Assembly: GCF_029278565.1 (NCBI RefSeq)
Contig: NZ_CP119559.1
Coordinates: 2,914,001-2,978,000 of the forward strand
From: Haloarcula halophila
GTDB lineage: Archaea > Halobacteriota > Halobacteria > Halobacteriales > Haloarculaceae
Length of the DNA: 64,000 nucleotides
Direction: 5' to 3'
Of the stretch, positions 55,204 through 57,113 are shown piece after piece. A program made the position numbers and the translations under genes. The notes below the pieces were generated by a model, which did not search any database, was not told the DNA's origin, and saw only the letters and a list, made by a program, of their open reading frames with translations. Numbering within the stretch: position 1 is the first letter of the stretch; the number at the start of each line of letters is the position of its first letter.

Positions 55204-56361
55204 ATGGATTCGATTATCGACGACGCAATCGACGAGGCCGAGGACGAGGGGTCATCGTCGGCGTCGGAAACGACGGACGGACAAGCAGGGTCAACCGAAG
55301 AGATGTCGACTGCCGGACAGATGACCGACGAGGAGTTGGCGTCGGTCGTCAAAGATCTGGAGACGAAGATCACGGTCGTCGGCTGTGGGGGGGCCGGCGG
55401 GAACACGGTCACACGGATGACCGAGGAGGGGATCCACGGGGCGAAACTCGTCGCCGCAAACACGGACGCCCAGCACCTCGCGGACGAGGTCGAGGCCGAC
55501 ACGAAGATCCTCATCGGGAAGAAACGCACCGGTGGTCGCGGTGCGGGGTCGGTCCCGAAGATCGGCGAGGAGGCCGCCCAGGAGAACATCGAGGACATCC
55601 AGTTGGCCATCGACGGCTCCGATATGGTGTTCGTCACCGCGGGTCTCGGCGGCGGCACCGGGACGGGCGCGGCCCCCGTGGTCGCACAGGCCGCACAGGA
55701 AGCCGGCGCGCTCACCATCTCTATCGTGACGATCCCCTTCACCGCCGAAGGGGAGCGCCGGCGGGCCAACGCCGACGCCGGCCTCGAACGGCTCCGCTCT
55801 GTCTCGGACACGGTCATCGTCGTCCCGAACGACCGCCTGCTGGACTACGCGCCCAGCATGCCGCTGCAAGACGCGTTCAAGATCTGTGACCGAGTGCTCA
55901 TGCGTTCGGTCAAGGGGATGACCGAACTCATCACCAAGCCCGGCCTCGTCAACGTCGACTTCGCCGACGTCCGGACCATCATGGAGAACGGCGGCGTCGC
56001 GATGATCGGACTGGGCGAGTCCGACTCGGAGAACAAGGCCCAGGACTCCATCAGATCGGCGCTGCGCTCGCCGCTCTTGGACGTCGAGTTCGACGGGGCT
56101 AACTCCGCCCTGGTCAACGTCGTCGGCGGTCCAGACATGTCCATCGAGGAGGCCGAGGGCGTCGTCGAGGAGATCTACGACCGGATCGATCCCGACGCCC
56201 GGATCATCTGGGGTGCCTCGGTCAACAACGAGTTCGACGGCAAGATGGAGACGATGATCGTCGTCACCGGCGTCGAGAGCCCCCAGATCTACGGTCAGGG
56301 CGAGGCCCAGGAGGAACGGGCCTCCCAGGAACTCGGCGAGGACATCGACTACGTCGACTGA
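55204..56361 (+). CDS. ftsZ1: Cell-division GTPase FtsZ (FtsZ1 type)
   Basis: A 385-residue tubulin-fold GTPase with a 50-residue acidic N-terminal extension. The GTP tubulin signature GGGTGTG is at 149-155 and the catalytic T7 segment ([11 protein letters not shown]) near residue 257. The C-terminal tail is short and acidic, as in archaeal FtsZ1. FtsZ1 forms the mid-cell ring scaffold in Haloferax (established). Synteny with secE and spt5 is typical of FtsZ1, not FtsZ2. ATG 55204 is chosen for the acidic start. Confidence 0.95.
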
Positions 56362-56362
56362 T

Positions 56363-56440
56363 AGTGATTATCGTAGCGATGTACCGGGACGACCGCACGC
56401 TCTCGTGCAGTCGATCCGGAACAGATCTACGATAATCACT
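56363..56440. repeat. 78-base near-perfect hairpin between ftsZ1 and secE
   Basis: Starting two bases after the ftsZ1 stop, a 37-base arm (56363-56399) and its reverse complement (56404-56440) flank a CTCT loop. The outer 14 base pairs (AGTGATTATCGTAG) are perfect and the inner 23 positions match at 16 plus one wobble. The outer arm is AT-rich, unlike the surrounding coding DNA. It could be a terminator/processing signal or a miniature mobile element. It lies immediately upstream of the secE promoter. Confidence 0.75.
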
Positions 56441-56458
56441 GTGAGCGGCCGACACCAC

Positions 56459-56466
56459 AATATAGA
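56459..56466 (+). promoter_or_regulatory. TATA box for secE-spt5
   Basis: AATATAGA lies 27-34 bases before the secE ATG at 56493 and follows the 78-base hairpin. It suggests that secE and spt5 have their own leaderless transcript. Confidence 0.6.
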
Positions 56467-56492
56467 AAAGCCGTCAGTGGGTACGGCTCGCT

Positions 56493-56672
56493 ATGGACGT
56501 TCCGTACGACCTCAACTCCTATATCCGTGTACTCAAACTGGCGAGTACACCGGAGTGGGACGAGTTCTCACAGATCGCGAAGATCGCCGGCGCGGGCATC
56601 GTGCTGGTGGGACTGATCGGGTTCATCATCTTCGCGGTGATGACCTTCGTCCCCGGTAGCAAGCCGGTGTAA
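56493..56672 (+). CDS. secE: Protein translocase subunit SecE (Sec61-gamma)
   Basis: A 59-residue single-span membrane protein. It has the N-terminal amphipathic helix (YIRVLKLASTPEWDEFSQIAK) with the TP-EW-D-EF pattern of archaeal SecE, then a transmembrane segment (about 32-53). SecE clamps SecY and is part of the essential protein-export channel. Length is normal for archaea but it is easily missed for its size. It is followed by spt5 with four bases between. Confidence 0.9.
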   Translation: MDVPYDLNSYIRVLKLASTPEWDEFSQIAKIAGAGIVLVGLIGFIIFAVMTFVPGSKPV

Positions 56673-56675
56673 CAG

Positions 56676-57113
56676 ATGGGGATCTACGCAGTCAAGACCA
56701 CGGCCAGCCAGGAACGGACCGTGGCCGACATGATCATCAACCGCGAGGAAGAGAGCATCCACGCCGCGCTGGCGCCGGACTCGCTGACCAGCTACGTCAT
56801 GGTCGAGGCCGACGACGCGTCGGTGTTCGACCGCATCCTCGACGAGATTCCCCACGCCAACGGCGTGGTCCAGGGCGAGTCCTCGATGGCGGAAGTCGAA
56901 CACTTCCTCTCGCCGAAACCCGACGTCGAGGGGATCGCCGAGGGCGACATCGTCGAACTCATCGCCGGCCCGTTCAAAGGCGAGAAGGCCCAGGTCCAGC
57001 GCATCGACGAGGGCAAAGACCAGGTGACCGTCGAACTGTACGAGGCGACGGTGCCGATTCCGGTGACGGTTCGGGGCGACCAGATCCGAGTGCTGGATAG
57101 CGAGGAACGGTAG
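56676..57113 (+). CDS. spt5: Transcription elongation factor Spt5 (NusG family)
   Basis: A 145-residue protein with an N-terminal NGN domain (YAVKTTASQERTVADMI, residues 4-20) and a C-terminal KOW domain (EGIAEGDIVELIAGPFKGEKAQVQRID, about 83-110). Spt5 binds RNA polymerase through NGN and raises processivity. Gene order secE-spt5 is nearly universal. ATG 56676 is preceded by a short gap after secE. Confidence 0.95.
   Translation: MGIYAVKTTASQERTVADMIINREEESIHAALAPDSLTSYVMVEADDASVFDRILDEIPHANGVVQGESSMAEVEHFLSPKPDVEGIAEGDIVELIAGPFKGEKAQVQRIDEGKDQVTVELYEATVPIPVTVRGDQIRVLDSEER

Follow-up and report, generated by a model that had tools for sequence, protein, structure and literature searches.

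The long hairpin between ftsZ1 and secE of Haloarcula halophila is best understood as a copy of a non-autonomous, MITE-like mobile palindrome which duplicates the trinucleotide TSA (TGA or TCA) of its target; we put the probability of this reading at about 90%. The sequence-only reading had named a miniature inverted-repeat element as one of its two explanations of the hairpin, and this is borne out by the scatter of copies, by terminal inverted repeats with a duplicated 3-bp target, and by empty sites.

Structure, boundaries and target duplication

Within the window, i.e., the whole 64-kb stretch of DNA that was analysed, the hairpin at positions 56363–56440 is the longest close inverted repeat. 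It is real, as originally described, and folds at a minimum free energy of –44.6 kcal/mol into 31 pairs, including one G-U, around a 4-nt loop; 14 perfect outer pairs are followed by blocks of 3, 5, 4, and 5 pairs with internal mismatches between them. None of 200 dinucleotide shuffles folded equally well (mean –19.6; z = –7.66). The true ends of the element lie one base beyond the hairpin on either side, as indicated by the sharp end of the family alignment and a modal copy length of 80 bp. The 80-bp element (TAGTGATT...AATCACTG; 56362..56441, plus strand) thus comprises a left arm of 38 nt (56362..56399), the loop CTCT (56400..56403, placed by the fold), and a right arm of 38 nt (56404..56441), all on the plus strand, the arms being supported by the fold, the family alignment and covariation. 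Sequence and family flank statistics identify a TGA on either side (56359..56361 and 56442..56444, plus strand) as the 3-bp target duplication, the left TGA being the stop codon of ftsZ1. The latter gene (55204..56361, plus strand), named from its sequence, is an ORF of 385 aa coding for an FtsZ-like protein with the FtsZ motif GLGGGTGTG. Downstream of the element and upstream of secE (56493..56672, plus strand; homologues in 41 of 41 genomes), a TATA-like stretch, AATATAGAAA, is located at 56459..56468 on the plus strand. The same stretch lies ahead of secE in almost every Haloarcula genome inspected, and we regard AATATAGAAA as a putative promoter element of secE. The next ORF after secE (56676–57113) is NusG/Spt5-like.

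The family alignment stops sharply at TAGTG...CACTA, and 107 of 124 non-redundant copies have the modal length of 80 bp. Identical 3-bp flanks were found in 109 of the 124 copies (TGA in 86, TCA in 23), compared to a mean of 73 and a maximum of 85 after shuffling; in an earlier, smaller set, 86 of 92 copies had identical TGA or TCA flanks. The middle base of the flank is the same on both sides in 109 of the 113 copies which have the outer T and A. The target around the duplication is weakly palindromic, with the consensus GAC-TSA-GTC. Filled and empty versions of a site could be compared at two loci of genome G023. One of them reads GACGACTGA-element-TGAGA, while eight relatives have the uninterrupted sequence GACGAGTGAGA or a similar one; the other reads TCGACTGA-element-TGAG, as compared to an uninterrupted TCGACTGAG in one relative and close variants in others. 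Duplication of TA in the style of Tc1/IS630 elements was dismissed, since the two flanks share the S of TSA as well and the empty sites (GACTGAG) lack TA.

Insertion at stop codons

The position on a stop codon, as behind ftsZ1, recurs in the family. In 51 of 102 well-flanked copies, an upstream coding ORF terminates in frame at exactly the flanking TGA, and in three the TGA lies in one of the two other frames; the coding calls behind these counts are rough, as they come from a simple score of codon usage for which the window served as training set. In a rough control, made up of TGA sites that match the motif but lie outside coding sequence, the share of stops was 0.23 (p = 4e-9 for the copies against this share). 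Directly after the rebuilt stop, the element contributes TAG TGA in the same frame. GAC TGA is a common gene ending in these genomes, and a sizeable fraction of insertions is therefore expected to fall exactly on a TGA stop; the target motif explains part of the coincidence. Beyond that, stop-codon siting may reflect either a preference of the transposase for stops or selection against other insertions. Since the duplication spans 3 bp, the stop codon is rebuilt, which should leave the upstream protein unchanged and allow the insertion to be tolerated; insertion at a stop is thus probably harmless to the host. A more far-reaching proposal, which we consider tentative and rather improbable as a whole, is that the transposase is tuned to gene ends and homes to TGA stops in GACTSAGTC-like contexts, the duplicated stop sparing the protein, and that it would be an unrecognised archaeal enzyme acting on fully palindromic, hairpin-forming DNA.

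Spread of the family and origin of the ftsZ1 copy

Searching the genome itself with the hairpin stretch yielded five places with 74–100% identity, among which the ftsZ1 copy is the best preserved. Members of the family were found in 65 of 146 Haloarculaceae genomes, representing 17 of 22 genera (E 1e-4), and plasmid copies occur in Haloarcula, Halapricum, Halocatena, and Halococcus. The phage records searched contained no match, and matches to viral contigs were at chance level only. An exact 20-mer of the arm hit 70 stretches in named genomes, mostly in the metagenome-assembled genome (MAG) Halobacteriales archaeon QH_10_67_22 (G060), but also in Haloarcula mannanilytica and H. rara. This MAG has 289 arm matches (two in the reversed control), corresponding to approximately 145 copies, which are highly similar and in some cases identical. 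Subtypes of the element tend to be genome-specific, and its copies stand behind many unrelated genes.

The family also comprises variant and broken forms. In one variant (G002, G006, G007, G010, and others), the outer ends TACGGATTGTTGTAG replace TAGTGATTATTGTAG, both arms being changed alike while the interior is the same. Half copies which retain one arm and break at or near the hairpin tip (L104, L338, L341, L348, L084, L126, and L303) fit the expectation for a palindrome that is cut, or suffers a deletion, in its middle. Some 40 other stretches surrounding unpaired arms (G034, G062, and others) contained half or diverged copies only. A 40-bp miniature of the element has TCA on both sides (L304:201-240, G062), and some copies hold nested palindromic elements of other families (L361:5403 and L301:2613-2774).

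At the ftsZ1–secE locus, arms upstream of secE were absent from all 23 other Haloarcula genomes that were readable at the site, among them the closest relative (G020); ftsZ1 is not adjacent to secE in many of the 23. In the closest relative, ftsZ1 ends in the same GACTGA, and GTCGACTGA is then followed directly by the spacer, with no hairpin. An indel of about 13 bp in this spacer means that the exact empty site at ftsZ1 could not be reconstructed. We infer that the ftsZ1 copy postdates the divergence from the closest sequenced relative and reflects an insertion here rather than a loss in the relative. A copy of mobile origin could still have been co-opted, its hairpin now protecting the ftsZ1 transcript at its 3’ terminus or setting that terminus, and the fact that the best-preserved copy of the genome lies directly behind an essential gene would fit such a role. 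However, good preservation is also compatible with a recent insertion, given that the closest relative lacks the element, and neither comparative nor expression evidence speaks for a function; we consider co-option improbable.

Palindrome upkeep, mobilisation and known relatives

The palindrome is maintained across the family. Among 44 aligned copies, 85% of the pair cells hold standard pairs, compared to 74% in shuffles, and both sides have changed in 168 pair cells as compared to 67. A covariation score of 0.324 (0.147 in shuffles) was reached by none of 500 shuffles, although kinship among the 44 copies inflates such counts. Sliding the pairing partners reduced pairing to 29–50%. Moreover, two versions of the inner stem exist that differ widely in sequence, GACCGCACG/CGTGCGGTC and GCGCCGACC/GGTCGGCGC, and both are palindromic. 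The compensatory changes and the two palindromic inner stems indicate that what the family preserves is either the hairpin itself or symmetrical ends.

Two 38-nt terminal inverted repeats and a 4-nt loop make up the mobile unit, and its TAGTGATT-type ends would be recognised by a DDE cut-and-paste transposase supplied in trans, an enzyme type suggested by the short target duplication. The element enters the weakly palindromic GAC-TSA-GTC target and duplicates TSA; when the insertion falls on a TGA stop, the duplicated TGA rebuilds the stop and the protein should be kept. The ftsZ1 copy is best explained as one such stop-codon event. Transfer as single-stranded DNA by a Y1 transposase of the IS200/RAYT type which reads the hairpin, as for a REP-like element, would account for the conserved internal mismatches and the asymmetric arms, and Y1 transposase genes are present in G060, G002, and G034. 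Nevertheless, Y1 transposases (IS200/IS605) are not expected to generate a 3-bp duplication on both sides, as is observed here, the empty sites suggest duplication of TSA, and the copy-rich genome G007 (58% complete) has no Y1 transposase gene, which makes this route very unlikely. Least probable of all, and hardly tenable, is a conserved cis-acting RNA hairpin (for processing, stability, or termination) serving the ftsZ1–secE region, which takes in the other explanation of the sequence-only reading, a processing or stability element linking the division and export genes: the very stable fold directly after the stop codon and the conserved pairing would suit it, but the locus is empty in the relatives inspected, which refutes a conserved ftsZ1–secE role, the copies follow many unrelated genes, Rfam models gave zero matches to the element, and the hairpin is not an intrinsic (T-run) terminator, as the stem is followed by GTGAGCGGCC with no T-run and a terminator-like match at the hairpin is likewise absent.

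Neither about 1.6 Mb of loci nor the arm searches yielded a parent transposon sharing the element's ends. Several candidates were discarded. An IS4/ISH8-type element of G034 (L226), which has a 10-bp duplication, CTTTACGAAC, interrupts another palindromic element, to which its apparent TSA ends belong. For an IS630-type element of the same genome (L302), near-identical copies place the start of the IS at GAGTGGTC, nested in the loop of a copy of the present element. The partial matches 1–30 (G024, G007, and others), considered as possible IS ends, proved to be diverged or alternative copies wherever they could be resolved. The large duplications on G000:C2 and G020:C4 are not IS; here, nearly identical sequences of some 5 kb that are present twice per contig (G000:C2:18800-23800 and 485800-490800; G020:C4:17500-22400 and 164500-169400), represent either real duplication or assembly overlap. 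The ends GAGTGATCACTGTAAC of a related IS630 resemble those of the element while the insertion habit differs, and we take this IS as a lead to the driver.

Two further observations were made in the course of these searches. IS630-type IS with the ends GAGTGGTC or GAGTAATC occupy loops of only a few bases in different hairpins (L308, L315, L318, and L321 in G034; L310 in G023), apparently with no target duplication, and may target hairpin loops. A second family of palindromic elements of about 80 bp, with the ends TACTGCCGGCTGTAAC, has the same architecture but another sequence (L221, L226, L112, L125, L159, and L182), and shows 3-bp TNA duplications (TGA, TCA, TTA, and TAA).

The closest known elements are the small mobile repeats (SMRs) of Haloquadratum walsbyi. 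SMR-A and SMR-B measure 80–110 bp, have terminal repeats unrelated to transposons, and reportedly make no target duplication; SMR-A is reported to insert into PATEs and IS605-type elements, and SMR mobilisation was called “enigmatic” in 2011 (PMC3119063). Like these SMRs, the present family is haloarchaeal, non-coding, and dispersed, with terminal inverted repeats that match no known transposon; unlike them, as judged by description only, it duplicates TSA and is located at the ends of genes. In its shortness (80 bp), its non-coding nature, its two 38-nt terminal inverted repeats, the TSA duplication in 109 of 124 copies, the empty and filled sites, and the roughly 145 copies in G060, the element conforms to a MITE, whereas the inverted repeat covers nearly the whole element and the loci and arms searched gave no parent transposon with matching ends. 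PATEs have no terminal inverted repeats, carry near-terminal IS605-type palindromes, and make no duplication, and the element, itself consisting of two terminal inverted repeats and having a duplication, does not correspond to them. It resembles REP/REPIN sequences with RAYT (PMC3733652, PMC3116915) in being palindromic, extragenic, and enriched at gene ends, but these consist of a 20–40-bp palindrome with a 5’ tag, a linked RAYT gene, and no duplication, which does not describe an 80-bp, TSA-duplicating element. GTAG REPs of bacteria often provide the stop codon of flanking ORFs (PMC3733652), whereas the element reuses an existing one.

A 3-bp target duplication of the TNA type is made by the IS1031 group of IS5. 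This likeness is a lead only, since no such IS with the ends of the element was found here. A literature search, conducted mostly without subscription journals, retrieved no paper on the element family. The MITE-like kind of element is already known; the TSA duplication, the siting at stop codons, and the wide spread among Haloarculaceae set this family apart.

An apparent regulatory hairpin has turned out to be a mobile-element insertion, which calls for caution in reading haloarchaeal 3’ hairpins as functional. Insertion at a stop codon together with a 3-bp duplication that rebuilds it is a neat route to harmlessness for a genome parasite. The defined ends, duplication, and target should aid in finding the enzyme that moves haloarchaeal small mobile repeats.
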